Source: an uncultured Alphaproteobacteria bacterium (GTDB taxonomy: Bacteria > Pseudomonadota > Alphaproteobacteria > UBA11222). From it: a stretch of 42,715 bases of DNA. Position numbers and translations under genes: made by a program. Location of the stretch: positions 1 to 42,715 of the forward strand of contig CALAQW010000104.1 in the NCBI GenBank assembly GCA_937888955.1, read 5' to 3'. Of the stretch, positions 17,790-42,624 are shown one piece after another (the first letter of the stretch is position 1; each line of letters opens with the position of its first letter). A model generated the notes under the pieces. That model made no database searches. It saw only the letters and a program-made list of their open reading frames with translations, and was not told the DNA's origin.

Positions 17790-17871
17790 TTGCCTCAAGC
17801 TCCCTTATCGCACTTCTTGTAATTTCTCACTGGCCATTCGCCCCGCACAGCCGTGCCGGACATCGCACTAT

Positions 17872-26805: not shown

Positions 26806-26841
26806 CGAAAAAGGGTATTCCGCAAGTTCTGCGGAATACCC
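26806..26841 (-). terminator. Intrinsic terminator of the cytochrome operon
   Basis: A perfect 11-bp stem, GGGTATTCCGC (26813-26823) and GCGGAATACCC (26831-26841), with a 7-base loop. Read on the minus strand it is followed by TTTTTCG. It lies 66 bp after the stop of the 1289-residue cytochrome and closes the seven-gene operon. Confidence 0.85.
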
Positions 26842-26846
26842 TGTCC

Positions 26847-26906: not shown

Positions 26907-29900
26907 TCAGTTGGGCAGCGGCTGCCCCTGCAATTCCAGCGAGCCGAGCTTGCGGCGCGGCCCACTGTTTCCAGGTGCGCGCCTGTCATCCCGCCTTGCT
27001 TCGGGGCGCGATTGAAACCGCTCCTGCTCCACCTCGTCGGTCACGAAATAGGGGTTGCCGTCCGGACCGATATACAGCCGCTTCTGCTCATCAAGTGTGA
27101 AGGGGCGTGAGCCAAGCCGACCGAAAACCGCGATCTGCCCGCCGGTTTCATCCACACCACGATCCCGATCCAACCCTTTGGACAGGGATGTCGCCGGCCA
27201 GCGGGTCTTGCGCCAGGCAATCAGCTCCGGCTTGGGTTCGGGGCTGAAGCCATAGAAACGCGGCTGACTGTCAGGCGATGTCAACTGAATGACCTTCAAA
27301 CCATTCACACCATCAGCGACATAGGCGAACAGAGAGGCATTGGTTGACCCAACCACCACATCGCGTGCATCGCTGATCGCACCATCGGCGGTGTATTTCT
27401 GATACACAGTCGGCTTCTCGGCCTTTTCGATATCGATGATTGCCAGGCCTTCACTGCCCGCTGCTACATAAGCGTAGGTCCGGGCAAGATAGATCCGCTG
27501 TGCATCGGCCAGCGGCGCCAGCGCCCCGTCGATCTGCTGCGGCGCTTGCGGGTTTGTCACATCAACAACCTCAAGCCCTTTTGCCGTGCTGACAAAGAGA
27601 TAGCGGAACTGCAATGCCGTCGCACGTGGGTCCTGCATCGGAATCTGTGCCACAAGTTGCGGCTTCAGGGGATCGAACATCGACAGCACAACAATATCGC
27701 GCGGCGTCGCTATGTAGAAATAGCTGCCCGCAATCGTGATGTGCCGCGCCCCGTCAAGCACGCCATTCTCGTTCCAGGTCAGTGCCCGTTCAAAGAAGTT
27801 GTTGCGCGGCTCCCCGTCAACCAGCGTTGTCACGTCAACGACAATCAACCCTTCCTCGCGATCGGTGACGAAAGCATAACGGTAAATTTCATGCATTTTC
27901 TGTTCCTGATTGGTCTTCAGGATCAGATCGCCTGCATTGAGGTTGATATTGATATTCTGATTTGTCGGCAGGGCAACACAACTTGCATCAGGGGTCTCAA
28001 GATGGGTGTCATGTCCGGGGGCCGCGAAAGGTGCGGTGATGATGCGGTCCGAAAAGCCCTTATTGGCAATCGCATTCACATCGTAAGCCTGGAAGCCGTT
28101 CTTGCCTTCGGCGACGAAGACATATTCACCGCGCAACATCAGACATCCCACATCGCCTGCCTTCTGAGTATAGGCTTCGGGCAAATTACGCTGCCGGTCC
28201 AGATGCTGCTGATACCAGTCGGGATAGGCATATTTATGCAGATAGCTACCGAGCACCGCCTGCGGCTCATCCCACTCCGTCACGCGCACGGCTTCAAATC
28301 CGCCTTCCGCGCCGACATAAGCGTTGAAGCCGACTAAATTCACGAAATTGGTCCCGTGCAGCAACAGCTGCGCCATGATCGCATTATTGTCATTGGCTTC
28401 CGACAGATGACAATCGGTGCAGGTTTTCGTTTCCGTTTTCCGCGCGGTATGCGGGAAATGCGGAGCGAAGGCCTGACTTGAATACCCCGATGCGGCAATC
28501 GGCGGCTGCTGAACATACAGACGTTCGCGGTTGATATTGGTCGAAGACAATACCAGCGCCGAGGAGGACCGGATCGGTGCGATCGTGTTGCCCTTCACCG
28601 TCGCATTAACACCAAGCTGGAACATCTGATCGCGCACAACCTGCGGATTATAGGTCGCATAGTTACGAGTTTCCCCGCCCTCGAAGTGATTGCGTGCGGT
28701 TTTCCAGTTTGCCTCGATCGGCAGATGGCAGCCGGCGCAGCTCGTCGTCCAGGACAAGTGGCAGGTGAAGCATTCCATTTCCTCATCCTTGTGGGCGAGG
28801 TTCTCGGGCGACACACCTGGTCCCCAATCGAACGGTTCTCCTCCCGTCCCCAGTTTCGACATCAGCTTGGCACGGGCCGCCTTGGCATTGAATTCCCGGT
28901 GGTCAGGATTGACGCTGTCCTTGACCAGCGACATTTCCCATTCCAAATCGCCATCAAGCATCGAACGCTGATACAGCTTGCCATCCACCCATTGGAAACG
29001 GCGCTTGCCGAACGGGGTGTAGGTCAACGACAGATCCTTGCCCTCGCCTTTGGCGGCAGGCCCGCTCGTCCGCAAGGACGGGTAGCGTTGCGCGGTGCCA
29101 TGGCAATCATCGCAGCGGATTTCGATCGCAGCGGCCGCTTCGCCATACAAATGCCCGTCGCCATGCACATCCTGCTCGAAATGGCAGTCCACGCAATGCA
29201 TGCCCTTCTCCAGATGGATGGACTTCATATGCACCGCTTTCTGGAACTTCTCGGGATCGTCGGGATCGACAATCTTGCCTTCGGCGTCGAGCAGATTGCC
29301 CTTGCGATCCTTCTTGAAGATCGCGCGGAAATTCCAGCCATGACCGTGATAATCGGCAAACTGCGTATTCTTGAGTTGCGGATTAAGCAGCGAGACATCC
29401 TTGAGGAAATCAGGATCGGACCATTTGCCACGGATCACCGCACCTTCGGGGTTCCGTTCAAGCGCTTCATGCTGCTCGGCATTGGTGGGATAGCGCTGCT
29501 CCTCGGGCCACATGAACGGCGCATCGGATTCATAATCCCACATGGTGTAGCCAAGATAGGAATTCACGAAAATATTGGGCTGATGCATGTGGCAGTTCAT
29601 GCATTGCGCCGTCGGAATAGCGCGCGTGAATTCATGCTTGAGCGGATGTCCCGGCTCATCCTTGGGAATCGTCGGATCGACCGTCTGTGTCAGCCCTGTA
29701 TTGCCATATTGCGCGTAAGGCCCGGAATTATAGGGGTCGCGATCATTCGCATAGGGCACATGACACGCGCCGCAACCAGATGTGCGGAAATCGCCCGGAT
29801 TATCATTCGTACCCAAAAACCACATGAAGGGGTCATTGAGCCGCGTCTTATGAATATTGATGAGCGGCACAGCGATACGCAGCCCCGTGCCAGGCCCGCG

Positions 29901-30773
29901 CATCGATTGGCGCAGATCGGGCCGCCCCGGCTCTTCCAACCGCTGAATAAGACCGAGGGAATTCGGAATCGCAATTTCGGGGAACTGCGTCACGATATTG
30001 CGCCCACCCCGTTCGAACACCCGGAAAATATCAGACGGCGGTGTTACTTCCCAGGCCGGCAACGGCAGCAGGAAGGGGCGAACGCCGCGCGCTTCCATTT
30101 CCGGGGTAACGGGCCCGAGCGCGGTAATCTTCGCCGCCGTGCCGTCCATGTCATAAGCTTCGCCAAGAATATAATGCTTGAATGGCAGAATACCGTTGTT
30201 ATAGGCCGCACCGCCCCATAACAACGCACCTGTCGCCATGATGGAACGTTTCGCCTTGGCAATGATTTCCGCATGACAATTGCCGCAGGCCAGATGCGCA
30301 ATACGGTAGTCGCTGGGATTGACGAAACGGACATATTCCGACGCTTCCGCATTCAGCAGTGTAAAGCTGCCTTCCGGGTTTGCGCTATCGGGATAATGCC
30401 AGGTAAGCGGCAAGGTCGGCCGCACATGCGCGCGCTCCTGCGCCGCGAAATATTGCGTATCCCCCTGATGCGAGCCATCCGGCTTGAAGACGGTCGCATC
30501 GCCGCCATGGCAATCCGCGCAACCGATAACAACCGCAGGATTGCGGTGCATCGTCGCCGCATCGGTCGCCGTATGACAGCTTTCGCAGCCATCGCTTTTC
30601 TTGGCAGCCTCTGCCCGGTCCTGACGTGCAGGCGCAGGCGGATAATCGGGATAATCGATTTTCTGCGGCTTTTCCCCACCGGCGGCGAAGACGGGATGCC
30701 CGCCAAGCATACCAACCCCAAGCCCAACCAACAGGGTCAGAAACAGCCAATTTGTCTTTCGCAGCAAGGGCAT
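26907..30773 (-). CDS. Exported decaheme cytochrome c with C-terminal LVIVD-type beta-propeller
   Basis: About 1289 residues. An N-terminal basic-hydrophobic signal (LRKTNWLFLTLLVGLGVGML) is followed by an AxA-type cleavage site and no lipobox. Ten CxxCH heme motifs start, counting from the TTG two codons before the chosen ATG, at Cys 65, 87, 165, 336, 393, 529, 556, 670, 681 and 787. Residues ~875-1175 contain repeats of the form GLxVVDVTxPxxP and AYVAxGxEGLAIID, typical of the LVIVD propeller in surface proteins. The tail (1190-1290) is Arg/Pro-rich. Its ATG lies 2 bp after the barrel gene's stop. Inference: a periplasmic or outer-surface electron carrier paired with the barrel. It is far larger than MtrA or MtrC, and I know no characterised homologue. 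Confidence 0.85.
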   Translation of the reverse strand: MPLLRKTNWLFLTLLVGLGVGMLGGHPVFAAGGEKPQKIDYPDYPPAPARQDRAEAAKKSDGCESCHTATDAATMHRNPAVVIGCADCHGGDATVFKPDGSHQGDTQYFAAQERAHVRPTLPLTWHYPDSANPEGSFTLLNAEASEYVRFVNPSDYRIAHLACGNCHAEIIAKAKRSIMATGALLWGGAAYNNGILPFKHYILGEAYDMDGTAAKITALGPVTPEMEARGVRPFLLPLPAWEVTPPSDIFRVFERGGRNIVTQFPEIAIPNSLGLIQRLEEPGRPDLRQSMRGPGTGLRIAVPLINIHKTRLNDPFMWFLGTNDNPGDFRTSGCGACHVPYANDRDPYNSGPYAQYGNTGLTQTVDPTIPKDEPGHPLKHEFTRAIPTAQCMNCHMHQPNIFVNSYLGYTMWDYESDAPFMWPEEQRYPTNAEQHEALERNPEGAVIRGKWSDPDFLKDVSLLNPQLKNTQFADYHGHGWNFRAIFKKDRKGNLLDAEGKIVDPDDPEKFQKAVHMKSIHLEKGMHCVDCHFEQDVHGDGHLYGEAAAAIEIRCDDCHGTAQRYPSLRTSGPAAKGEGKDLSLTYTPFGKRRFQWVDGKLYQRSMLDGDLEWEMSLVKDSVNPDHREFNAKAARAKLMSKLGTGGEPFDWGPGVSPENLAHKDEEMECFTCHLSWTTSCAGCHLPIEANWKTARNHFEGGETRNYATYNPQVVRDQMFQLGVNATVKGNTIAPIRSSSALVLSSTNINRERLYVQQPPIAASGYSSQAFAPHFPHTARKTETKTCTDCHLSEANDNNAIMAQLLLHGTNFVNLVGFNAYVGAEGGFEAVRVTEWDEPQAVLGSYLHKYAYPDWYQQHLDRQRNLPEAYTQKAGDVGCLMLRGEYVFVAEGKNGFQAYDVNAIANKGFSDRIITAPFAAPGHDTHLETPDASCVALPTNQNININLNAGDLILKTNQEQKMHEIYRYAFVTDREEGLIVVDVTTLVDGEPRNNFFERALTWNENGVLDGARHITIAGSYFYIATPRDIVVLSMFDPLKPQLVAQIPMQDPRATALQFRYLFVSTAKGLEVVDVTNPQAPQQIDGALAPLADAQRIYLARTYAYVAAGSEGLAIIDIEKAEKPTVYQKYTADGAISDARDVVVGSTNASLFAYVADGVNGLKVIQLTSPDSQPRFYGFSPEPKPELIAWRKTRWPATSLSKGLDRDRGVDETGGQIAVFGRLGSRPFTLDEQKRLYIGPDGNPYFVTDEVEQERFQSRPEARRDDRRAPGNSGPRRKLGSLELQGQPLPN

Positions 30774-30775
30774 GA

Positions 30776-33061
30776 TCAATACGCCAATGTCAGGTTCGCA
30801 AGGATTGTATAGAAATGCTCATCATCGGTCTGATAGAGCGCTTTGAAGCCATCATCCGCGATCAGCCCCGCATAGGACAGGCGGAAGACGATATTCTGGC
30901 TCATCAGCGGGCGATAAATTGCCGATGCGGACAGGTCCCACCCGATTCCGGTATCGATATCGCCCTGATTGCGAACGGTTTCCAGCACGTCCGGCTCGTT
31001 GAAATCAAGCCGGTTGAAGTTGGTCGAAATCCGCAATTGCGGCAGCACGTCGAAATCGGTCCCGACACCCAGCAACCGGATGCCGGGATTGACGAAGTTG
31101 GATTGCCCATGCTCCTTCGATGATCGCAGGTCGGCAATCAACCCGTTGCGTTGCGACAGGGTCACCCCGCCGCCGCCGATCAGCGGAATATTCTGGCGGA
31201 TCCAGAAGCTCGTATCCGCCCCGGCAAATTGCGGGTTTTCGAAGATCGCCGAAAAACCTTCCGACCGATCATCGAACGGATCGTCATCGCCGCTGGCGTA
31301 AAGCGCTGAACCGCGCAGACGCACCCAGCTATAGTCGATCGAGGGCTCCGCCGCGAGGAAGTAGGCACGGATGTCGCTGTCTTCGTCGGTAAAGGTCGAG
31401 CCCCGCTCTTCACCCAAAGCGTAGTAGGCGGAGACAGACAAGTTCAGCCGGCCAAAATGGCCATCGCCATTATAACCCAGATAGGTCACGTCATATTCGC
31501 GCGGCCGTTCCAGCCCAAGTGAGGCAGGCCGTTGAATAAAGTCGTTATCGTCGAAGAAGAAGCTTTCCTCGCGATTACGGTTATAGGCAACCGTTGCCTG
31601 ACTGACGAAACCAAGAACAGGGAAATCCTGATAGTAAAGGTTGGCCAGGAAGGTATCGTCTTCACGGCTATCTTCGCCAATATCGTTCAGGCCGCTATTG
31701 GTATCTTTCTCCAACCGCCGGATCCAGGCCAGGTTGTACTGGAATATATTATTGTTCCGTGTGCCGAAAAAGCGTACGCCGAACTGATTATCCTGAAACA
31801 GAAAACCCCTGAAATCAGCATTGAACGGCTGAATCCCCACACGGATGGAATCAAAGTCATACCGATCCGACACATTGCGGATGTGGTAATCGACAAAGGC
31901 TTCCTGCAACCCGATATGCTTGTCCGACCGGTCGGTACCGCGATCAGGTGCGCGCTTGAGAATGCCGAGCTCTTCAACCTTCACGTAATTATAGTTGAAA
32001 ACAGGTGTCAGCCGGAATTCCCAATCCGGTGGCTTATAGGCGGTGTTGCCTTTGATCAGTGTCAGGTTCGTGATCAGATTCTGATTGAAAACAACCTGAT
32101 CGGGATCACCAAACAAATCATTCCGGTCGCGCCGCTTTGTCGTCGCGATACCAAGCGGTACCGGGAAAGCGCGCGGTTCGTAAATCGTGTCAGAGATAAC
32201 ATTGAGCAGCACAAACCAATCATCGAAAATCGGCTTGTCGCCCTTCAGCACGTTATTGTTATAGGGATCGTACCATTTCCCTTTGATACCCAAACCTTCG
32301 AGCAGGCGCCAACGATCGGGGATCGGCACCAGATCGACTTCCCGGTTATCGAGATACCGCATCAAATCCTGAAATGTCCGCGGCAAGCCTGATGGCGGTG
32401 CGATCCCTTCACGCGCGCGTGCATCCGCGTCATCAGGCGCAGCACCATCAAGCACATCGCCGCCGCCGTCTCCGGGCCGCCTGCGCGCCTGCGCCAATTG
32501 GTCATTAGCCCCGCCAATATAAGGATTGTAACCCGGCACGACCGTAAATGGCGGCTGATATTGCGCCACCGGCTGCCGGTTTACAGCGGGGGCCGCAGCT
32601 CCCTGCGCTTGAAGAAATGCTGGTGTCTGCGCAACCGCTGCCGGCCGCGAACCAATCGCACGTGCCCAATTGGTATTGTCCTGCGGCGCCTGCGGCGCGG
32701 TTGTAACAATCGGTGCGGGACGTGCGGCGCCGACAGGGGCCTGCGATGGCTGTACCGGAGCCGGCTGTGCGTAGCGCGGTACCGGCTGGACATATGTCGA
32801 CGGCACCTGCTGACCGTAATAATTATTCACCGCCGGCGGATAATAGGCCTGCGGCGCATAGCCACCAGGCACACCATAAGCAGGTGCCGGGGCCGCGCCT
32901 TGCGTATAGCCCTGATAACCGACAGCCTGGCTTGCGCCAGACGGTGTTCCGTTCGTCACCGGCACGCCATATTGGTTAAGCGCTTCCTTGCCGGCAAGAA
33001 CAGGCTGCACTGTGCCAGCCAGAATAGCGGCAATTCCAACTGATGCGCCGAGGGACTTCAT
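30776..33061 (-). CDS. Outer-membrane beta-barrel protein with Pro/Gln/Tyr-rich N-terminal region
   Basis: About 761 residues. From the ATG at 33061 there is a signal peptide (SLGASVGIAAILAGTVQPVLA), then ~190 residues of low complexity rich in Pro, Gln, Ala and Tyr (residues 25-215). From ~225 there are alternating aromatic/hydrophobic strands (RVGIQPFNADFRGFLF, NIFQYNLAWIRRLEKDTN, GRLNLSVSAYYALG) that end in the terminal tyrosine of an outer-membrane barrel (TILANLTLAY). A WYDPYNNNVLKGDKPI segment marks the barrel start. I recall similar uncharacterised barrels near multiheme cytochromes in other phyla, but cannot verify this. Size suits an MtrB-like conduit; the MtrB N-terminal CxxC is absent. 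The frame extends to 33244 but overlaps the upstream gene, so I reject that start. Confidence 0.8.
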   Translation of the reverse strand: MKSLGASVGIAAILAGTVQPVLAGKEALNQYGVPVTNGTPSGASQAVGYQGYTQGAAPAPAYGVPGGYAPQAYYPPAVNNYYGQQVPSTYVQPVPRYAQPAPVQPSQAPVGAARPAPIVTTAPQAPQDNTNWARAIGSRPAAVAQTPAFLQAQGAAAPAVNRQPVAQYQPPFTVVPGYNPYIGGANDQLAQARRRPGDGGGDVLDGAAPDDADARAREGIAPPSGLPRTFQDLMRYLDNREVDLVPIPDRWRLLEGLGIKGKWYDPYNNNVLKGDKPIFDDWFVLLNVISDTIYEPRAFPVPLGIATTKRRDRNDLFGDPDQVVFNQNLITNLTLIKGNTAYKPPDWEFRLTPVFNYNYVKVEELGILKRAPDRGTDRSDKHIGLQEAFVDYHIRNVSDRYDFDSIRVGIQPFNADFRGFLFQDNQFGVRFFGTRNNNIFQYNLAWIRRLEKDTNSGLNDIGEDSREDDTFLANLYYQDFPVLGFVSQATVAYNRNREESFFFDDNDFIQRPASLGLERPREYDVTYLGYNGDGHFGRLNLSVSAYYALGEERGSTFTDEDSDIRAYFLAAEPSIDYSWVRLRGSALYASGDDDPFDDRSEGFSAIFENPQFAGADTSFWIRQNIPLIGGGGVTLSQRNGLIADLRSSKEHGQSNFVNPGIRLLGVGTDFDVLPQLRISTNFNRLDFNEPDVLETVRNQGDIDTGIGWDLSASAIYRPLMSQNIVFRLSYAGLIADDGFKALYQTDDEHFYTILANLTLAY

Positions 33062-33077
33062 GAAACGATTTCCCACC

Positions 33078-35195
33078 CTATTTCCCCTCACATACATTCT
33101 GCTCACGGGAGCCAAGGAATGGCGCGAACGGACAACTGACATAACGCAGGCGAACCCCGTTGGGGCGCAAGCCGTCCGCCCTGATCGCCGAGGGCGCATT
33201 GCCGACCCCGTTGGCCAAAGCCACACCGGCATTGTGGAGGCCAAGGAACGAGATCATGTCGTCCTGATCCACACCGTCGCCCGAGACGCCAATCCCGCCG
33301 ACAAGCGCACCATTCTTGAAAATCGGAACACTGCCGGGAAAAATCTGCAACCCGTTCGCCAATGGATTAAGTCCCGACGTCACCGACCGGATCGGCGAGC
33401 AACCAAATCCGGTATCATTCACAAACCCGTCCCCGTCAGGGTCGAAGTCCGGCACGCCGTCACCGGTAATATCGATATTCAAATTCAGCACGAAGAGAAT
33501 GTGATTGAGAATATTGGGCACAACCAGATCAAGCTGCATGCCGGTTGAAAACGGGCTCCAGTTTCCGATCGGCCGGCTGAGCGGCCCCGGTCCGTTCGTA
33601 TCCACCCCGTCAGGGAAGAAAGGCCGTGACAGATTACCACCGGACCGGTCGGCAAATGCGGTTCCGTCCTGCAGCGCGTTCGGGCCGATAAATGCCTGCA
33701 CCTGCCGCACATAATTCGGGATATTGTAATTATGCCCGGGAATAAGCCCGTTCAGTGCATTGGCGGTCAATTGTATGACCGGAAAGACCTGCGGATTTTC
33801 AAGATTTGCCGCCGCATTGGGGTTGGAAATCAGAGCTGCTGTCCGCGCCTTCTGCAAGGACACATCAATACCGAATAAGGGGCCATCCGGTGTCCGCGCC
33901 TGCCCCAGCACCTGCCCTTCGGTATCCACCACAGAAACCGTGACCTGAATAGAGCTTTGCAACGGCCGCCGGATCTGCGCACGGCCGCTGAACGCCACAC
34001 GCAATGCATGACCAATGATTGTCGATACATCATTGACCGTCAGGTTCTGTCCGCCATTCGGCGCGCCTGCGATAATCGGAAAGTAGGGAACATCGGCCCC
34101 GCTGACCAACAGGAACGGGTTGAGCCCGGTAATATTGGCAACATTCGTATAGGCCGCACCATCGGTCACGGTATTGATCGCCCTGATGCCTGATGCGGAG
34201 GTGCCGTACACCTGCCCTGCGATCGGCGCGCCATCGGTGTAACCGGTGACAGCGACAAAATTCGCAGGTGTTGGCGCGGGCGCAGTTGCCGGCGTGCTTA
34301 CCAATGCGCGGGTATCCACATCGGTGTAGCGGAACGATTTACCTTCAACAAATATCCTGTCCGCGCGAATATTGCGCGGCGCGTCAAAGCCGACCGTTCC
34401 TGCCAGCGCGATGATTTCATCGGGATTGCTGTCAATATTGCTTGTAACCGTATCCAGACCATAAATGCCGTCGGCAACGATCCCGATACCCCCGACCGGC
34501 ACACCACCTTTATAGAGCGGCAAGCCGCCCGGATCGGCGGACAGCCCCAGGGGTGAACGTTTGGGCCCGCGAAACTGATCGGCGGGGACGGGCGCTGCGG
34601 CATTAATGAAACGCCGGCTCAGATCCGAACAGGGTAACTGGCTGAACTGCACCCCGAACAGCGGCCCGCTCGGCGCAAAGTCTTCACCGGGATTGAAATG
34701 TTCCTGCACAATCTGGCTCGCCGTGCGGGTTGTGAAGGCATTGCCGCCTGACGACAGATAAGCCCCGGTAATCGCTTTCGCGATCGCCCCGAGGCTTGCG
34801 GGGACAACCCCGGCCAATCCGTCGATCCCCGTGCCGATCGCCCGGCCCGACGTGACCGTTACCGTCGCCGGCGCACCGGGCATCTGATAGACGGCCAACA
34901 CATTGCCGACGCGGTCGACAACAGCAATGGTCGCGGGAAGCGCGCGCACATTCGCCTCCTGCTGCGCCTGCGCGATAATCTGGTTAACATCCGCAATGGT
35001 CAGATTTTGCGCGCTGGCCCGATCGGTCGCAGCCCAAAAGCCGCCCACCGCCGCCATGACTGCAATCATCGCAAGCGCACGGCTGGCCATGGCAGAAAGT
35101 GCACTCAACTGTTTCGCGCCACGCTTCATCCTTGCCTCGCTCGCCACCGCATCGAAACGATGCATTGCTTTCTTCGCTCCACTGACGATCTCCAT
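33078..35195 (-). CDS. Exported protein with two GlcG/HbpS-like domains
   Basis: A 705-residue protein. A long basic N-region is followed by a hydrophobic core (ALAMIAVMAAVGGFW, residues 40-54) and SAQ-type cleavage. Two GlcG/HbpS (PF03928-type) domains follow: ~64-275, with TIAVVDRVGNVLAVYQMPGA and LPLYKGGVPVGGIGIVADG; and ~384-655, with VSVVDTEGQVLGQARTPDG and VPIFKNGALVGGIGVSGDG. Each holds a Cys (189, 599) in an equivalent insertion. Within the second, residues 575-594 carry an Asp-rich loop (DPDGDG) like a calcium-binding repeat. HbpS-type proteins bind heme or sense redox, so a heme-handling or redox role beside cytochromes is plausible. Start: AGGA nine bases before the ATG and 3 bp after the previous stop. 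Confidence 0.82.
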   Translation of the reverse strand: MEIVSGAKKAMHRFDAVASEARMKRGAKQLSALSAMASRALAMIAVMAAVGGFWAATDRASAQNLTIADVNQIIAQAQQEANVRALPATIAVVDRVGNVLAVYQMPGAPATVTVTSGRAIGTGIDGLAGVVPASLGAIAKAITGAYLSSGGNAFTTRTASQIVQEHFNPGEDFAPSGPLFGVQFSQLPCSDLSRRFINAAAPVPADQFRGPKRSPLGLSADPGGLPLYKGGVPVGGIGIVADGIYGLDTVTSNIDSNPDEIIALAGTVGFDAPRNIRADRIFVEGKSFRYTDVDTRALVSTPATAPAPTPANFVAVTGYTDGAPIAGQVYGTSASGIRAINTVTDGAAYTNVANITGLNPFLLVSGADVPYFPIIAGAPNGGQNLTVNDVSTIIGHALRVAFSGRAQIRRPLQSSIQVTVSVVDTEGQVLGQARTPDGPLFGIDVSLQKARTAALISNPNAAANLENPQVFPVIQLTANALNGLIPGHNYNIPNYVRQVQAFIGPNALQDGTAFADRSGGNLSRPFFPDGVDTNGPGPLSRPIGNWSPFSTGMQLDLVVPNILNHILFVLNLNIDITGDGVPDFDPDGDGFVNDTGFGCSPIRSVTSGLNPLANGLQIFPGSVPIFKNGALVGGIGVSGDGVDQDDMISFLGLHNAGVALANGVGNAPSAIRADGLRPNGVRLRYVSCPFAPFLGSREQNVCEGK

Positions 35196-35198
35196 CGG

Positions 35199-35651
35199 CT
35201 AATTCCTGCGAAACACGTCGAAGGAACCGAACTTCAATACACTGCCCACACGATAATAGACCGTCACCTTCATCGGAAAATTACTGGCCGACAGATCCTG
35301 ATTGAGGACCTGAAACTGCAGATTGTCGCCAGCCGGCACAAAACCGTTATCGGGCAACGAGGCCAGATTCCGGTCCCAGGGCTGAAACAGCCCTGCATTA
35401 TCGCGCAGCAAAGGCTGACTGCCCGATGACTGAATGACCACATGGGTCGCGGTCGGCACATCGCCGCCCAATGCAATCGTCTTGTTCACCACGCCAAGCG
35501 TGACATTGGCAAGCACAACCGGGGTCAACACCCGCCCATCGACATTCAGGTCCGGCTCCGCCAAGGCTGGCGTTGTCCCCGCCACCAACAAGAGCAGCGT
35601 CGCCAGATTTATTCGCCGTAGCCCGGAAATGAACTGCAACATGCGCATCAT
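35199..35651 (-). CDS. Small exported protein of unknown function
   Basis: 150 residues. A signal peptide is clear (RINLATLLLLVAGTTPALA, residues 13-31). The mature part (~118 residues) has alternating polar/hydrophobic beta-strand character, no Cys and no heme motif, with strands such as THVVIQSSGS and KVTVYYRVGSVL, ending FRRN. I recognise no family; a small beta-sandwich is possible. Three Met codons occur in the first four positions, so the exact start is open. It abuts the FHA-cytochrome gene (TAG directly followed by ATG) and precedes the GlcG-type gene by 3 bp, so it is certainly part of the operon. Confidence 0.75.
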   Translation of the reverse strand: MMRMLQFISGLRRINLATLLLLVAGTTPALAEPDLNVDGRVLTPVVLANVTLGVVNKTIALGGDVPTATHVVIQSSGSQPLLRDNAGLFQPWDRNLASLPDNGFVPAGDNLQFQVLNQDLSASNFPMKVTVYYRVGSVLKFGSFDVFRRN

Positions 35652-37424
35652 CTAACTTCCATTATCCCCTGTTGCATATTCGGCATCAAGCTGCCCCGCC
35701 GGCACTTCAGGCCCTGTCCAGGCGGCGGATGCGACCGGCTTCATCATCGGCTCACCGTCAAGATGATAATCATGACAGCTCACGCAGTTCGACGGCACCT
35801 TGTCAGCCGCATTTTCGCCTGAATGACAATCCTGACAAATCTCGATCTTCGGTAACAGCACATCGGTTGCCAGATGTGATTTGTCCGCTGCATGGCAGTT
35901 CTCGCATTCGACGATCTCAAAATGCGCCTTGTGATCGTAACGCCCGCCAGGCAGCCAGCGATTGCTAACCGATGCAGGCACAACCGACCAGTTAAGCGGC
36001 CCCGCCCCTTCTCCGGTCATGACCTCATGACATGTGCCGCACATGGTACGCCCGAACGCCTGATCGGCGACTTTTCGCGCCTGCTGCTCCGCCCACTGCT
36101 TTGGGTCCGCTTTCACAATTTCCTGCTTGACCGGTTCGGAGCCTGGACGGCGACGGATGATCAGCTCTTCCTTGCCCCCCGAATCGCCCGCACCGCCGCG
36201 CAATGCAAAATCGCTGTAAAACTCGCGGATAAGCAGCTGCGCATTATCGACTTGCCCATGCGGCAGAACCCGGTCGGGCCGCCGCGGCTCGAATTTCAAC
36301 TGATGGCAGCGCTCGCACTGCGCCTCCATCTCGATGGGGAAGAAGCTCGCGCCGGATGGTTCGCTGACATGGCAGGACGCACAGACAAGCTCCTCGCGCC
36401 CTTTCGGACCGCGAATCCCGTCTTTCTTCAGATGCACGTCATGCGGAAACCGCAAACCCGATCGCTCGACCAGTTTATCGGGCTCATTCAGCGAAATCCG
36501 TTCACTGCGCTGCGCAACAGGGTCAAGCATCACAAGGGGACGGAACTCGGGATGTTCATCTTCAAAATTCGACGCATTAAGCAATTGCGTCTTTGGCGCA
36601 TCCGCCTCGATATCAGCGTGGCAATCAGCGCAGAAACTATCCTGCATGATCGAAATCGCGGCATCGCCATTATGCTCTTTATGGCAGCTTTGACAGGCGC
36701 TGCCAGCGGCATCCTGATACAGTCCGACTTCCGCAAGTTCAGGTGCCTGCGGGTCGAAATGATGCGTAATCTTTTCGTGGCAGGTAAAGCATGCCTCATC
36801 CTTCACCTGAACAAATGCCGCCTCGTGACAGACATTGCACTGCATACTGATGAAACGGTGCGCCGTCGAGATCGGGCCGCTGTCCCACGACTGGTCAAGC
36901 CGAAAGGCAATCTCGCTGCGCGGCTTGGGTTCCTCATGCAGGGTGAAGAACACAATCGGCGCGATCAGAAACAGCGCGATGATCGCCAGCGCCAAACCCC
37001 AGGACCAGACACGTTTACTGACACCGCGACCGGCAAGGCTTGTCACACTCCGCGCCGTCAGCGCCTCATAATCGTCACTCAGCGGCCGGACGAGTTCGAC
37101 GTCGATAGCGACATCCTTCCCCTCGGGCGCCTCGACAATCGTTATGTCATATGGGCCGACAGCAATGACATCGCCGATATCGACCGCACGGGATGGCACG
37201 GAAATGCCATTGACCCGAATATCCGCGCCTTCCTCCGCCTCGACAAAGATACCGCCCGGACGATGATGCAAAACCGCATGCTCCAGCCGGACGCGCGGAT
37301 CGGCCAGATAAACTTCCGCATTTGTGGCCCGGCCAAAACGCAATGTTTCGGCCTCAAGCTCCTCCGGCTTGCGCGATACGCCGCCCCGAGACAGGCGGGC
37401 GAGATATGTAACAACTGCTTCCAC
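35652..37424 (-). CDS. Inner-membrane decaheme cytochrome c with N-terminal FHA-like domain
   Basis: 590 residues. Residues ~25-100 fold as an FHA-like domain: LRFGRATNAEVYLAD (Gly-Arg), RLEHAVLHH, then DIRVNGISVP (Asn-Gly) and DIGDVIAVG. One helix (~140-161) crosses the membrane, followed by a periplasmic part with ten CxxCH motifs at Cys 196, 212, 244, 265, 348, 370, 462, 507, 530 and 547. So the FHA side should be cytoplasmic and all hemes periplasmic. FHA domains usually bind phosphothreonine, but the usual Ser before Arg-x-x-His is not obvious here, so binding is uncertain. The GTG start has an AGGGG site and lies 8 bp after the cytochrome b-like gene. Role: periplasmic electron relay from the membrane to the barrel system. 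Confidence 0.85.
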   Translation of the reverse strand: MEAVVTYLARLSRGGVSRKPEELEAETLRFGRATNAEVYLADPRVRLEHAVLHHRPGGIFVEAEEGADIRVNGISVPSRAVDIGDVIAVGPYDITIVEAPEGKDVAIDVELVRPLSDDYEALTARSVTSLAGRGVSKRVWSWGLALAIIALFLIAPIVFFTLHEEPKPRSEIAFRLDQSWDSGPISTAHRFISMQCNVCHEAAFVQVKDEACFTCHEKITHHFDPQAPELAEVGLYQDAAGSACQSCHKEHNGDAAISIMQDSFCADCHADIEADAPKTQLLNASNFEDEHPEFRPLVMLDPVAQRSERISLNEPDKLVERSGLRFPHDVHLKKDGIRGPKGREELVCASCHVSEPSGASFFPIEMEAQCERCHQLKFEPRRPDRVLPHGQVDNAQLLIREFYSDFALRGGAGDSGGKEELIIRRRPGSEPVKQEIVKADPKQWAEQQARKVADQAFGRTMCGTCHEVMTGEGAGPLNWSVVPASVSNRWLPGGRYDHKAHFEIVECENCHAADKSHLATDVLLPKIEICQDCHSGENAADKVPSNCVSCHDYHLDGEPMMKPVASAAWTGPEVPAGQLDAEYATGDNGS

Positions 37425-37432
37425 GCCAGCCC

Positions 37433-38266
37433 CTACCAGTAAAAGAAGACCGCCACGATATGCGTCGCGAGCGCCGCGAGCAGCGCAAAGGAAATCGGCA
37501 CATGAATGTATAACCAGATATCCAGCAGCGCCTTATAGCGCACGTCACGCCGCGCCCGGCGAACCAGATCCTCTTTCCGTGCCATCAAGGCAATCAGCCC
37601 ACGCAGCTGCTCACTCTGCCCGGTTGCAGCAGAGGCCGCAATTTCCTGCAACTGCCGGTTCGCGTCGATGGTCGGGCAATTTGTATCGCCGCCCGACAAT
37701 TGCTGACGAAAGCTGCCGCCGATTACGGTATCTTCCGCCGCACGCAAAACGATTTGATTGACCCTGTCACCAAGCGCCATCGCCGTATCGCGGCACTGCG
37801 CATCCAGCTCCGCGATATCCTGCAAAATCTGGTCGAGTGTCGCACCACCACGATTGCGGGTCATCAGATCAGGCACGCGCAGATAGGCAACCAATCCGAA
37901 TATGCCACTGCCGATGACAAACATCATCAATGCATAGGCAAGGGTATGCACATTCCAGCCAAACTGAAATCCGGTATGCAGCGTCGCGACGAAAATCAGC
38001 GCAAGTCCGAGATAGACATGCGCGCTCAGCCAGTCCTCCACCGACAGATTGGCCGCCCCGTAGCGACGCTTGCGAATGCCGAACCACATCAGCCAGACGA
38101 TCAGCAGCGCCCCGACCGTACCCAGCCCATAGCCAAGCCAGGTACCACCATTCGCCACGCCATAGGCCGGGTCATGCAAGAGGTACAGACCGATCGCCAC
38201 CGCAACGACCAGCAACGCCCACTTCAGATACATGTAGTTCCTGAAAACCAGGATGGATTGATGCAT
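37433..38266 (-). CDS. Diheme cytochrome b-like membrane protein
   Basis: 277 residues with hydrophobic segments near 15-31, 44-62, 82-100, 106-128 and 250-276. Two helices each carry a pair of His 14 apart: H83/H97 and H255/H269. This is the bis-His arrangement of diheme cytochromes b that exchange electrons with quinones (NarI, formate dehydrogenase gamma and similar). Between the helices lies a soluble stretch of ~110 residues (135-245) with two Cys (159, 197) and many charged residues, which is unusual for such small subunits. It sits between the FeS flavoprotein and the membrane cytochrome c, just where a quinone-level link would be expected. The ATG has an AGGGG site. Its family name is not certain. 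Confidence 0.72.
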   Translation of the reverse strand: MHQSILVFRNYMYLKWALLVVAVAIGLYLLHDPAYGVANGGTWLGYGLGTVGALLIVWLMWFGIRKRRYGAANLSVEDWLSAHVYLGLALIFVATLHTGFQFGWNVHTLAYALMMFVIGSGIFGLVAYLRVPDLMTRNRGGATLDQILQDIAELDAQCRDTAMALGDRVNQIVLRAAEDTVIGGSFRQQLSGGDTNCPTIDANRQLQEIAASAATGQSEQLRGLIALMARKEDLVRRARRDVRYKALLDIWLYIHVPISFALLAALATHIVAVFFYW

Positions 38267-38286
38267 GTCTGCCCCTTATCCAGCCG

Positions 38287-38304
38287 GGTTGAATGAATTC
38301 AACC
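38287..38304. repeat. 8-bp palindrome upstream of the cytochrome b-like gene
   Basis: GGTTGAAT-GA-ATTCAACC, a perfect inverted repeat (38287-38294 and 38297-38304), 21 bp before the ATG at 38266. It could be an operator or a leader hairpin that affects translation of the downstream genes. Confidence 0.5.
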
Positions 38305-38392
38305 TGGCAACCCCTCAACAATCCCCGTTTTACTTTCTCTCTGCCGGATGACCGCAACCAAAAGCAAGACACCAACCGACGGCTTCTTTCTT

Positions 38393-38428
38393 GCGCGATT
38401 GCCCTGCCGCCCCCGGCGGGTATCGCGC
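38393..38428 (-). promoter_or_regulatory. Intercistronic GC-rich stem-loop after the flavoprotein gene
   Basis: Nested stems: GCGCGAT/ATCGCGC (38393-38399 and 38422-38428) enclose CCGCC/GGCGG (38407-38411 and 38415-38419). The hairpin begins 6 bp after the flavoprotein stop and no T-run follows. It could be an mRNA processing or stability element separating the first gene from the six downstream. Confidence 0.5.
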
Positions 38429-38434
38429 TATAAT

Positions 38435-40828
38435 TTACCTTCCCTGCGACACGATCTTGAAAAATTCCGACGGGTTCACCCGCAATGCGGCCCCGGTCGG
38501 ACAGGCCCGCACACAAGACGCGCCCCCCTCAATATCCTTGCACATATCACATTTGACGGCCTTTTTCGCGCCACCCTTGCCTTGCGCGGCCAGCCATTCC
38601 GCATCCGGCTGCCCTGGCCCCGGTCCGCGACCGAATAACAGCCACTGCAATAGTCCGGGCTTTTTTGGCTGCGGCGCAGCCATGTGAATCACACCGTAAG
38701 GGCAGTTACGTTCGCAATTGCCGCAGCCGATGCAGGAATCGCTGACATAGACCTCACCATTCGGATTGCGCCGCAAGGCATCGGGCGGACAATCCACCAT
38801 GCAATGGGGATGCTCGCAATGCCGGCACGACGTCGGAACGTGGATCGACTCATAGGTCGGCCCGGCCTCCCGATTAAGTCGTGATTGCCCGAAATGGGTC
38901 TCCGCGCACGCCTTCTCGCAATTGTCGCAACGAACACACAGCGACTCGTCAATCAGCAAGACGTCTGTCGCCTCCCCAAGCCCCTGCTCGACCAGGAACT
39001 GGATGATGCCGCCTGCCTGCGGCTGCTTGGTGCTTTCGATATTCTCAAGCATCCGGCCGCGATACTTGTCTTCCATCAACTGACGGACAGACGGGTTGCG
39101 CGCCATCAGCTCCTGAAACTTCTCGCCATCAAGCCGCAACGCCTCAACCGGCACCGCCGCCTTGATGGTGGCCGAACGCGGGGCGTTGCTGATCAGCGCC
39201 ATCTCGCCAACGTAATTGCCGGCAGCCACATAGGAAATCACCGATTCCTTACCGCCGATCTCCCGCGATACCGTGACCGAGCCGCGCTGGATAAGATAAA
39301 GGCAATCACCCGCATCCCCTTCGCGGAAAAGCACCTCGCCCTGATCGAACTCTTCCACCTGCACTGCGTGGATAAGCTCTTCAAGCTCATCCATCGGAAT
39401 GCCCGGAGCGATATAGGTCTGGATCTGCCGACCGACCGCCACCTCGTCCATCACCCGCTTGACCGCCTCGACCGAGTTGATCAGCTTGATCATCGTCCGG
39501 CGCGGCGTCTCGATCAGCAAGGAAGGTTGCGAAGCCAATACCGTCGCCGTCCGCCGGCGCCCGGATAACAGTCCCATTTCACCGAAGAATGCGCCCTGCC
39601 CAAGCCCCACCGTGATGGAGGGATCATCCGGGTTGACCTGAATATCGACGCCGCCGTCGACAATCGAGAAAAAGCTGTTTGTATAATCGTTCCGCTCAAA
39701 CACGATATCGCCCTTGACGGGCGTATGAATATCACTGTCGATCAGAAATTCGCGTAGCTGCAACGTCGTCAACCCAGCCAGCAGCGGCACCGATTCCTGA
39801 ATATGGGCAATCACCTCATCGACCGGCGGATTGCCCGGAAGGTTACGGAATTTCTCCTCAAGCAGCGGTTCGTCGGCCGGCTTGACGTGGTTACCCTGAA
39901 TATATTCGATAACCTCATAGCCCTGATTCATCGCCTGCTTGATCAGGGGATAACCTGCCAATGCGCCAATGATGTAAAGGCCGGGCACATTGGATTCATA
40001 TTCGCCGCTCAATTCAGGCAGGGCGGCCGGATCATTGCTGGGGAATTCAATGCCGCAGCTTTCCACGAATTTGCGCGGCGGGATGGCGCCCAATCGCGCA
40101 ATCACGCGATTACAGGCAACCTTCGTCTCCCCTTGCGGGGTTTTAAGAATGATGCCGTCATCTTCGACAAGCACAGGCGACGCGCTGTAAAGACATTCCA
40201 GCTCACCTTTTTCGATCGCGGCTGTGATAAGCGAGTTATTACCCTGCTTCGCGCGGGCGAATTCGTCGCGGCGGTTGACGATGACGACATTGTTCTGTTT
40301 CGACAAGGCCACCGCATTTTCAATTGCGGCATCGCCTGCACCGACGACGACGATCGTTTCATCGGCATATTCGTCCGGATCGTCGAGCTGATACTGGATC
40401 CATTCGCGGTCCTCGCCATCCACCCCCATCTTGCGCAAATTGCCTTGCAGGCCGATCGCAAAAACAACGAACTCACAGGTCAGCGTATCGCCATTGCCTA
40501 ATGTCAGGGTGAAGTCGCCCTTGCTGCCACTGATCGCCGTAACCTCGGCCTTGTAGCGAACATTGACTTCGTGCTTCGCCGTCTCCTCATCCCAGGTCTG
40601 CAAAATATCTTCTCGGATCCCCATGGCGAAGGACATATCGCTGCGCAGCGGCAGGATATCGGGCGTCGCCATGACCAGCTTGCCCTTCTGATATTTGTAG
40701 ATCGTATCGGAAAGATGGTCGGTTTGCTCCAGAAGCACATGGGACACACCAGTAGCGGCGGCGTGACCGGCCGCACTCAAGCCGCCGGGCCCGGATCCAA
40801 CGATCGCTACCTTGTAATGCTCCCCCAC
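38435..40828 (-). CDS. NAD(P)H-type flavoprotein fused to two cyclic-nucleotide-binding domains and four [4Fe-4S] clusters
   Basis: 797 residues, soluble. Residues 1-310: a two-dinucleotide-fold flavoprotein (FAD loop GSGPGG at 11-16, NAD(P) loop GAGDAAIE at 163-170, NRRDEFARA at 185-193, resembling the NADPH motif of thioredoxin reductase) without a CxxC disulfide. Residues ~365-465 and ~490-595: two cNMP-binding domains with phosphate cassettes FGEMGLLSGRRRTATV and GEMALISNAPRSATI. Residues ~625-790: a ferredoxin-like part with 16 Cys in four sets (631/634/637/641, 668/671/676/680, 699/702/705/709, 760/763/772/776), like the beta subunits of DMSO-reductase-type complexes. First gene of the operon, GTG start with AGAGGG. 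Inference: it moves electrons between NADPH and the membrane cytochrome, gated by a cyclic nucleotide. Confidence 0.87.
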   Translation of the reverse strand: MGEHYKVAIVGSGPGGLSAAGHAAATGVSHVLLEQTDHLSDTIYKYQKGKLVMATPDILPLRSDMSFAMGIREDILQTWDEETAKHEVNVRYKAEVTAISGSKGDFTLTLGNGDTLTCEFVVFAIGLQGNLRKMGVDGEDREWIQYQLDDPDEYADETIVVVGAGDAAIENAVALSKQNNVVIVNRRDEFARAKQGNNSLITAAIEKGELECLYSASPVLVEDDGIILKTPQGETKVACNRVIARLGAIPPRKFVESCGIEFPSNDPAALPELSGEYESNVPGLYIIGALAGYPLIKQAMNQGYEVIEYIQGNHVKPADEPLLEEKFRNLPGNPPVDEVIAHIQESVPLLAGLTTLQLREFLIDSDIHTPVKGDIVFERNDYTNSFFSIVDGGVDIQVNPDDPSITVGLGQGAFFGEMGLLSGRRRTATVLASQPSLLIETPRRTMIKLINSVEAVKRVMDEVAVGRQIQTYIAPGIPMDELEELIHAVQVEEFDQGEVLFREGDAGDCLYLIQRGSVTVSREIGGKESVISYVAAGNYVGEMALISNAPRSATIKAAVPVEALRLDGEKFQELMARNPSVRQLMEDKYRGRMLENIESTKQPQAGGIIQFLVEQGLGEATDVLLIDESLCVRCDNCEKACAETHFGQSRLNREAGPTYESIHVPTSCRHCEHPHCMVDCPPDALRRNPNGEVYVSDSCIGCGNCERNCPYGVIHMAAPQPKKPGLLQWLLFGRGPGPGQPDAEWLAAQGKGGAKKAVKCDMCKDIEGGASCVRACPTGAALRVNPSEFFKIVSQGR

Positions 40829-40844
40829 ACGACCCTCTTTGTTG

Positions 40845-40871
40845 TCAGTACGCTTCTCGTTATCAGTACGC
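40845..40871. repeat. Direct repeat TCAGTACGC with 18-bp period in the operon leader
   Basis: TCAGTACGC occurs at 40845-40853 and again at 40863-40871, inside a partly conserved 18-bp unit. A perfect palindrome, GTAATATTAC, lies beside it (40885-40894). All are within 70 bp of the GTG start at 40828, so they are candidate regulator sites for the cytochrome operon. Confidence 0.5.
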
Positions 40872-41089: not shown

Positions 41090-42559
41090 CTACTCAAGCC
41101 CCGCGATACTGCGCGATATCGCCTGGGATTCAATGCTGCCAGCGGGCAATAGATCGCGCAATCGCGTCCAGTAGGCACGGGCCTGCGCATTATCCCCTGC
41201 CTGTGCGGCATGCACACCCAGAAACCACAACGCCTGCCGATGATCGGGCGCAATCGCGACGATTTTCTTCAACAGCCCTGCGAAACGATCACTGACCGGC
41301 TCCGCCTCACCGGCTGCCTGCAACGCCTCCGCATAACCGCCAAGCACATCGAGATCGTCGGGCGCAGTTGCCGCCGCCCGTTCGTAAGCCGCAAGCGCCT
41401 CATCCGTCCTGCCAAGCACGTTATAGGCACGCGCCAGACGCAACCATCCTTGTGTATTGTCAGGCTCTTCATTCTCAAGACGCTCGGCAAGCTGGGCAAC
41501 CATTCCTTCGATCATCGTATTCCGATCACCCTCGGACATCTGCGCGGCCGCGGCCATATCCTCAGCAGTCGGCCCCGCGACACGCGCGCCGGGTGCCATC
41601 ATCGGCGGCTGGGTAGACTGCGCCACCTGCCCCGAAGACGCACCAGCCGCCGCTGCGGGCTGCGGGTTTTTCAGCAACGCCGCCACATCGAGCTGCAGAA
41701 TCCTCGCCGCCTCGTCAATCTGCCGCCGCACCGCACCGACCCAGGACGCATCGGGCTCAGCTTCATTCACAAGCGCAACCCAATCGTTCAACGCGCCGCG
41801 CAGGTCGCCAGACTGCGCCCGCTCGACACCGAGATAGAATCGCGCCCGCGGTTCGGAGGGCATGATCTCGCGCACGCGTTTGAATTGCGCGGATGCCGCC
41901 GGCGTGATCTCACCTTCAGCGGCAAACACCAACGCTTCGGCATATTCGGCAAGCACCATCGGCGCAGACCGCCCGTCAAGCAGGTTCACCGCCTTCTCAT
42001 AGGCTCCGACCGCGGCATTGAAATCGCCCATCGACGAATAGGACCGGCCAAGCAACATCCAGCCGGAAAGATCTTCGGGGTTTTGCTCAAGCCGGCCGGC
42101 AAGCTGCCCAACAAGGGCGCTCATATCCATATGCTCTTCATCGGCACCGCGCACCTGCGCCACGGCCGAGGCGGGCGCCAGCTTGGGACTGCCGACATTG
42201 ACATAAATCGCAAATGCCGCGCCGGGCATCAAAAACAACAAGAGCGCAGCCAGCCCCCAGCGCCGTATTGCACCCGGTGCTGACGCAGGCTCCACCTGGG
42301 CCTGATCCGCATCCGGCGCGGCATCGGCCACCGCCAGCATGCGCCGCTTGATTTCAATTTCTGCTGCGGTCGCATTTTCGGCACTGATCAGGCCGCGCGC
42401 GTGATCAGCGGCAACTTCGGCCAATTGCGCACGATAAACCTGCAAGGCATGCGCATCCCGACGCTGCCCTGCGCCCTGCCGCCGCAACAGCGGAAACAGG
42501 GTCAGAGCGACGGCCCCGAGCGACATGAATGCAGCGATAATCCAGAAAGTTATGGGCAT
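41090..42559 (-). CDS. ccmI: Cytochrome c maturation protein CcmI
   Basis: A protein of ~489 residues matching CcmI (CycH), the TPR protein that presents apocytochrome c to the CcmFH heme ligase in System I maturation. An N-terminal helix (ITFWIIAAFMSLGAVALTLF) is followed by a cytoplasmic loop with VYRAQLAEVAADHARGLIS, a second helix (GLAALLLFLMPGAAFAIYV, ~100-118) and a long periplasmic TPR region, including LSGWMLLGRSYSSMGDFNAA and QGWLRLARAYNVLGRTDEAL. A Pro/Ala/Gln linker near 305-335 separates two TPR blocks. The ATG at 42559 is chosen; a GTG 18 bp upstream is possible. The rest of the ccm cluster is not in the window. A maturation factor beside a 20-heme operon is notable. Confidence 0.87.
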   Translation of the reverse strand: MPITFWIIAAFMSLGAVALTLFPLLRRQGAGQRRDAHALQVYRAQLAEVAADHARGLISAENATAAEIEIKRRMLAVADAAPDADQAQVEPASAPGAIRRWGLAALLLFLMPGAAFAIYVNVGSPKLAPASAVAQVRGADEEHMDMSALVGQLAGRLEQNPEDLSGWMLLGRSYSSMGDFNAAVGAYEKAVNLLDGRSAPMVLAEYAEALVFAAEGEITPAASAQFKRVREIMPSEPRARFYLGVERAQSGDLRGALNDWVALVNEAEPDASWVGAVRRQIDEAARILQLDVAALLKNPQPAAAAGASSGQVAQSTQPPMMAPGARVAGPTAEDMAAAAQMSEGDRNTMIEGMVAQLAERLENEEPDNTQGWLRLARAYNVLGRTDEALAAYERAAATAPDDLDVLGGYAEALQAAGEAEPVSDRFAGLLKKIVAIAPDHRQALWFLGVHAAQAGDNAQARAYWTRLRDLLPAGSIESQAISRSIAGLE

Positions 42560-42624
42560 GGGCAGAAGCCGTAGCACAAGCCCGGCAGCTTGTTAATCCA
42601 ATCTGCCCTGCAATAACGCTTTTA

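Follow-up and report, generated by a model that had tools for sequence, protein, structure and literature searches.

A conserved gene set for a candidate trans-envelope electron-transfer chain in an uncultured alphaproteobacterium and other proteobacteria

On its minus strand, the window (the whole stretch of 42,715 nucleotides that was analysed) carries seven genes, P1 to P7, which recur with an eighth gene, P8, in other proteobacteria, and this co-occurrence supports the view that P1 to P8 may act as one functional system. The reading we favour, with a probability of roughly 0.55, is that the system would deliver electrons from NADPH, regulated by cyclic nucleotides, along a trans-envelope chain of two modules to P7 at the outer membrane. 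The architecture named in the original prediction, a trans-envelope electron conduit with a cytoplasmic redox entry, a cytochrome b, periplasmic cytochromes and an outer-membrane barrel, was upheld as an architecture. Missing from that prediction were P8, the kinship of the inner module with the PCC4 clusters and the enzyme-like conservation of P7, together with the links to genes of type II secretion, cyclic-nucleotide synthesis and Ser/Thr phosphorylation.

Locus organization and cofactor motifs

All seven genes originally reported were found to be intact open reading frames on the minus strand in the order given, and the Pfam matches agreed with the earlier reading of their domain content. 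The features are as follows.

38435..40828, minus strand: P1, 797 aa, FAD/NADPH reductase domain (YpdA/TrxR-like), two cNMP domains and four [4Fe-4S] sites (Pfam, PDB relatives, conserved motifs)
37433..38266, minus strand: P2, 277 aa, inner-membrane protein resembling a diheme cytochrome b, with SGxxG and two WX3HX13H motifs (motif kept in 55 homologues)
35652..37424, minus strand: P3, 590 aa, FHA domain, one transmembrane helix (144-162) and cytochrome part with 10 CxxCH (Pfam, motif count)
35199..35651, minus strand: P4, small exported protein, 150 aa (open reading frame)
33078..35195, minus strand: P5, 705 aa, exported, two domains of the HbpS/GlcG type (Pfam PF03928, 1.8e-22)
30776..33061, minus strand: P6, 761 aa, signal peptide and outer-membrane barrel (AlphaFold2 model, corrected start)
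26907..30773, minus strand: P7, decaheme cytochrome with C-terminal LVIVD beta-propeller and signal peptide (Pfam, motif count, model)
26812..26842, minus strand: intrinsic terminator, 14-bp stem followed by a T-rich tail
41090..42577, minus strand: CcmI/CycH cytochrome c maturation protein, a neighbour outside the operon (Pfam PF23914, 8.6e-38)

The gaps between the ends of the open reading frames are 168 bp for P1-P2, 8 bp for P2-P3, 0 bp for P3-P4 and 3 bp for P4-P5, and they come to 16 bp for P5-P6 and 2 bp for P6-P7 once the starts of P6 and P7 are corrected; the spacing of 0 to 16 bp claimed earlier thus applies from P2 to P7 and fails between P1 and P2. P6 probably starts at the ATG at 33061 rather than at the mechanically assigned TTG at 33244, and the start of P7 is probably the ATG at 30773. 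The strong terminator that was said to close the gene set is present at 26842-26812. Directly upstream of the P1 start, at 40834-40866, GCGTACTGAyAAC occurs twice; this direct repeat was rejected as a conserved element, since the sister genome (L013) keeps one degenerate copy only. Elsewhere in the window, at 16770-19761, lie genes which resemble, as judged by eye from their translation, two 2-oxoacid:ferredoxin oxidoreductase subunits (KorAB type).

The earlier count of 20 CxxCH motifs was exact, with 10 each in P3 and P7, and these sets of ten were present in 55 of 56 P3 homologues and 89 of 90 P7 homologues. The 16 Fe-S cysteines of P1 (16/16) and the two His pairs of P2 were likewise kept across homologues at 90% or more, and both WX3HX13H motifs were retained along with SGxxG in the 55 homologues of P2. 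Such conservation places the heme, Fe-S and His motifs far above chance. In the window CcmI adjoins P1, and several further clusters have a CcmI or CcmA gene nearby, CcmA being confirmed in locus L053, which other betaproteobacterial loci resemble. Taken with the conservation of the motifs, these cytochrome c maturation neighbours support heme attachment, and the hemes are likely to be bound covalently. The ABC-transporter family to which such genes belong in 12 loci is mixed, several of its members being other ABC proteins.

The inner module

P1 matched Pyr_redox, two cNMP-binding domains and Fer4 in Pfam; it has neither a signal peptide nor a hydrophobic segment, and it would be the cytoplasmic point of electron entry. 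The PDB relatives of its flavin part were the YpdA/Bdr disulfide reductases, and its second Rossmann fold keeps, in the alignment of homologues, N-R-x-x-E-F-x-R-x-K, which we take to be a thioredoxin-reductase-like NADPH motif. An NADPH-type site of this kind, along with domain analogy, favours an outward flow of electrons; flavin/Fe-S/cytochrome b chains are able to run in reverse. Both cNMP pockets of P1 have the phosphate-binding Arg in 57 of 57 sequences, and the Glu in 56 of 57 and 50 of 57, respectively. CHASE2-adenylate/guanylate cyclases are encoded near nine clusters, which fits with these cyclic-nucleotide domains.

A profile search of the PDB with P2 gave no useful match. P3 matched FHA (weakly) and Cytochrome_C7/c3 in Pfam, and the predicted topology would place its FHA domain in the cytoplasm and its 10-heme part in the periplasm. 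The FHA domain keeps Gly-Arg in most sequences and does not keep the usual Ser of the phosphothreonine pocket, which makes its binding function uncertain. In nine loci, most of them from gammaproteobacteria, genes for PP2C and FHA proteins come after the cluster. P4 had no match in Pfam or NCBIfam, was recognisable in a profile scan of the relatives' loci among alphaproteobacterial loci only, and was undetected in locus L017.

The outer module and P8

No Pfam domain was matched by P6, and a profile search of the PDB set with it yielded no detectable homologue. Its AlphaFold2 model (pLDDT 80.6) is an 18-stranded barrel with a conserved loop of about 70 residues between strands 13 and 14, preceded by a variable, P/Q-rich N-terminal region, and the fold search returned AlgE as the nearest solved structure, followed by OprD-type channels. 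The MtrB barrel which encloses a decaheme cytochrome has 26 strands (PMC7198977). Calculated from barrel geometry with assumed shear numbers, the backbone radius is about 17 A for 18 strands versus about 23 A for 26, and the difference in strand number makes a decaheme threaded through the modelled P6 barrel doubtful. The original prediction had counted a barrel modelled as too small among the findings that would weigh against it; this concern was partly borne out, and a sheath around a decaheme in the style of MtrB is unsupported.

The fold of P7 was informative for one half only: the overall pLDDT was 58.6, with the propeller confident and the heme half poor, and the propeller resembled surface-layer propellers in the fold search. 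Pfam matches were LVIVD and a multiheme domain, and a profile search of the PDB gave nothing useful. Mean identity between the window and beta/gammaproteobacterial homologues was 63.5% for P7 in comparison to 32.5% for P3, and the share of columns at least 90% identical was 41% for P7, 11% for P3 and 13% for P8, the P7 figures being inflated by the choice of these loci through similarity to P7. In the sample of 398 genomes, which is free of this bias, matches to P7 were either near full length or distant ExtM-like or propeller fragments, with no intermediates. By these alignments P7 is by far the most conserved component. Cytochromes of external electron transfer have been reported to evolve unusually fast (PMC12977616), so that P7 resembles an enzyme or a tightly docked hub more than it does a wire.

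P8 was recovered by clustering of the flanking open reading frames as a c554-like cytochrome with four CxxCH and one CX4CH. It was present in 63 of the 90 loci examined, usually right after P7 in beta- and gammaproteobacteria and before P5 in sphingomonads, and the window's own genome carries it on another contig (C28). All 21 tested genomes with the outer module had P8, several of them far from the cluster, and none of the three tested genomes with P1-P2-P3 only had it; the distribution of P5 was the same (21/21 and 0/3). P8 is a further core component of the system.

On contig C28, P8 stands head-to-head with gspE (MshEN domain) and gspF (L106:10769-15275), and similar P8-gspE-gspF blocks are present in one betaproteobacterial and several alphaproteobacterial loci. 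P8 adjoins gspE and gspF in L175 as well, and gspE/gspF were found near the cluster or P8 in L021, L029, L033, L038, L041, L044, L047 and L070. As MtrC of Shewanella is exported by type II secretion (PMC9048795), this linkage makes it worth proposing that P7 may take the same route, by analogy, and the linkage may also be mere synteny. About 8 kb from P8 on contig C28 lies a gene for a PP2C phosphatase-Ser/Thr kinase fusion (L106:1325-3085), P3 being the component with an FHA domain. A two-partner secretion pair, made up of a ShlB/FhaC-type protein and an exoprotein of 2092 aa (L107:1521-9674), directly precedes P8-P5-P6-P7 in Sphingobium herbicidovorans, and similar genes occur in some Phenylobacterium-type loci.

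Distribution and co-occurrence

A search of 142 relatives with P7 returned 12 genomes with strong matches at 59-100% identity, the window's own included, and the fetched regions were collinear as P1-P2-P3-(P4)-P5-P6-P7 as far as the contigs reach. At least 593 P7 relatives came out of a profile scan of the GTDB species genomes; the best 80 show 60-80% identity along almost their whole length and belong mostly to the alpha-, beta- and gammaproteobacteria. Loci from several alphaproteobacterial families, and many beta- and gammaproteobacterial ones, have the same gene order; P1 follows P7 in the betaproteobacterial loci, and in the sphingomonad and caulobacter types P1-P2-P3 form a separate unit, often on the opposite strand. 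An annotated example is on plasmid pMSHV of Sphingobium herbicidovorans.

In the phylum sample of 398 genomes, close relatives of P2 were present in 15 genomes, P6 in 12 and full-length P7 in 11. All 12 P6 genomes were among the 15 with P2 (hypergeometric 1.6e-20, a value that ignores phylogeny, seven of the 12 genomes being of one family), and 11 of the 12 also had full-length P7. In the remaining one (G285) a contig end interrupts the cluster, and P7 was found nowhere else in the genome. In three genomes (G343, G476 and G521) P2 is encoded either on a different contig from P6-P7 or hundreds of kb from them, and both modules are present, which argues that the association is not mere linkage. 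The co-occurrence in other genomes on which the original prediction depended thus holds, and a purely lineage-specific or chance cluster was ruled out by conservation across classes. In two loci, L151:7344-10703 and L152:3046-6420, P1 and P2 are fused into one protein of about 1120 aa followed by a 9-heme P3, and the genomes concerned (G169, G284) are without P5-P8, indicating that the inner module can exist alone.

Comparison with known systems

He et al. (2017, PMC5566968) described PCC4 as putative porin-cytochrome clusters with three multiheme cytochromes of 4, 5 and 10 hemes, in which a pfam13247 Fe-S protein is encoded upstream of the inner-membrane protein, and linked them to Fe(II) oxidisers with a proposed inward direction. 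In their account the inner-membrane proteins of PCC3 and PCC4 share the same motif as P2, two WX3HX13H and SGxxG, and are of a cytochrome b type which may react with quinone. For comparison, 13 PCC4/PCC3-like loci (L138-L150) were obtained through distant P2 matches and assigned by the published definition. Most of them encode a cNMP and 4x[4Fe-4S] protein, an inner-membrane protein, a 10-heme P3-like cytochrome and a c554-like cytochrome with 3-4 CxxCH, some also a 5-heme cytochrome, and the loci gone through in full (L138, L143, L145) an NAD(P)H/FAD/2Fe-2S protein, a set of components which fits the definition of PCC4 (PMC5566968).

The present system has in common with PCC4 the P2 motif protein, the cNMP and 4x[4Fe-4S] protein, and two cytochromes, one with 10 hemes that resembles P3 and one of the c554-like type with 4 hemes that resembles P8. 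The Fe-S protein is of family PF13247 in both (P1 scored 29.6 bits against Fer4_11, cut-off 26.2), here fused to the FAD and cNMP domains in P1. PCC4 differs in having a separate NAD(P)H/FAD and 2Fe-2S protein, whereas the flavin domain fused in P1 belongs to another fold family, and in having a 5-heme cytochrome and another porin; its heme set of 4/5/10 is not matched by the 10 CxxCH of P3, the 10 of P7 and the four CxxCH plus one CX4CH of P8. Profiles of P5, P6 and P7 found no match in the 13 loci, and the whole PCC4/PCC3-like genomes tested contained neither P5 nor P7. By sequence, the inner module (P1, P2, P3 and P8) is homologous to that of PCC4 and the outer module (P5, P6, P7) is different, which makes this a sister system of PCC4 and not a member; PCC4 proper was rejected on its porin family and its cytochrome heme set. 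The same study also names a cluster of Leptothrix cholodnii in which a porin described as having a "24 transmembrane region" is combined with a redox protein, an inner-membrane protein and a multiheme cytochrome (PMC5566968); it may be the present system.

PCC3 shares the inner-membrane protein motif and a large multiheme partner cytochrome. Its cytochromes have medians of 34 and 21 hemes (PMC5566968), and it was rejected because about 20-30 or more hemes would be expected where we count 10, 10 and 5. An alphaproteobacterial PCC3-type locus (L142:9616-14839) has the inner-membrane protein followed by cytochromes of 24 and 27 hemes.

MtrCAB, MtoAB and PioAB are alike in outline, with a barrel and multiheme cytochromes reaching the outer membrane. 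Against the DmsE/MtrA model P3 scored 22 bits and P7 14.7 bits, far from the cut-off of 192.2, and the sheath barrel of MtrCAB/MtoAB has about 26 strands versus 18 in the AlphaFold2 model of P6; membership in MtrCAB was rejected on both counts, and the distinctness claimed in the original prediction is supported.

With the Geobacter ExtHIJKLMNOPQS cluster (selenite/tellurite) the system shares a homologous N-terminal part of P7 (80 bits to ExtM) and the presence of a barrel protein and a cytochrome b in the same cluster. ExtM has 12 hemes, and its model of 599 positions is too short to hold a propeller as well; the same cluster encodes a Rieske protein, ExtO, and another cytochrome b, ExtP. 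The 80 bits of P7 against an equivalog cut-off of 800 led us to reject membership. Two loci (L023:8703-11057 and L024:2792-6680) encode 12-heme ExtM-like cytochromes without a propeller, the one in L024 adjoining a TorC-like pentaheme membrane cytochrome. No description of an LVIVD/FHA/GlcG/cNMP gene cluster was found in the open-access literature.

Proposed mechanism and alternatives

In the favoured reading, P1 would take electrons from NAD(P)H, its motif being of the NADPH type, and pass them through FAD and the four [4Fe-4S] clusters to the diheme cytochrome b P2. Having crossed the inner membrane through P2, they would reach the hemes of P3 in the periplasm and then P8, the c554-like cytochrome of the periplasm. 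From P8 or P3 they would go to P7, which would be held at or in the outer membrane alongside P5, the GlcG protein, and P6, the 18-stranded barrel, and would reduce an acceptor at or near the cell surface. The flow would be regulated by the two cyclic-nucleotide domains of P1 and possibly also by the FHA domain of P3. A barrel of 18 strands does not obviously accommodate a decaheme, which leaves the crossing of the outer membrane, if there is any, unexplained.

The same components could serve without any extracellular transfer if P7 is an ExtM-related multiheme reductase, periplasmic or at the outer membrane, that acts on a soluble substrate entering through P6 as a specific, AlgE/OprD-like channel, with P5 binding heme or substrate. 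The strong conservation of P7 relative to P3 and P8, so different from the fast evolution of external-transfer cytochromes (PMC12977616), would be explained, as would a barrel fold that is that of narrow channels, and ExtM-like relatives do occur alone or beside a pentaheme TorC-like gene. The propeller and the gsp linkage suggest instead that P7 is at the surface, and the conservation is inflated by the P7-based choice of loci, even if the 398-genome sample shows no intermediate homologues; we consider this reading unlikely. Uptake of electrons appears quite unlikely: P7 would oxidise an extracellular or outer-membrane donor (metal, humic, mineral or electrode), and the inward path of the electrons would lead by way of P8, P3 and P2 either to quinone or, with proton motive force as the drive, via P1 to NAD(P)+. 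The NADPH-type reductase motif of P1 argues against it, and many of the named carriers come from genera known as aerobic heterotrophs. In its favour are a Haliea MAG from a biocathode that carries the system (L083), the homologous inner module in PCC4-type clusters, which their authors linked to Fe(II) oxidisers, and a type of cytochrome b which may react with quinone (PMC5566968); the inward direction of PCC4 is itself a proposal only. That P5, a double HbpS-like protein, and P6 import or degrade heme with electrons from P1-P3 seems highly improbable. P5 belongs to PF03928, named "haem degrading protein HbpS-like", yet HbpS/GlcG domains serve many uses, a TonB-dependent receptor and a heme oxygenase are absent from the cluster, and the 25 conserved covalent heme motifs of P3, P7 and P8 would be an odd investment.

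Significance

A more specific reading, which we put forward tentatively as possible rather than probable, is that many aerobic proteobacteria possess here a surface reductase driven by NADPH and gated by cyclic nucleotides. P7 would then be a multiheme enzyme that leaves the cell folded, by type II secretion, and receives its electrons from a dedicated relay of cytochrome b, decaheme and c554-like cytochromes, and the barrel would not be a sheath. The system would then be a class of trans-envelope redox chain tied neither to anaerobic respiration nor to iron oxidation. If the favoured trans-envelope reading is true, very common soil and aquatic proteobacteria, many of them in genera known as aerobic heterotrophs, would spend more than 20 covalent hemes per set to send electrons to or from the cell surface under second-messenger control, for a purpose without description in the open-access literature searched. 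Since many carriers are in culture (Sphingobium, Phenylobacterium, Steroidobacter, Parahaliea, Duganella and Limnobacter), knock-outs would be feasible, and because the inner module is PCC4-like and separate from the outer one, the system offers a route to the function of PCC4 too.
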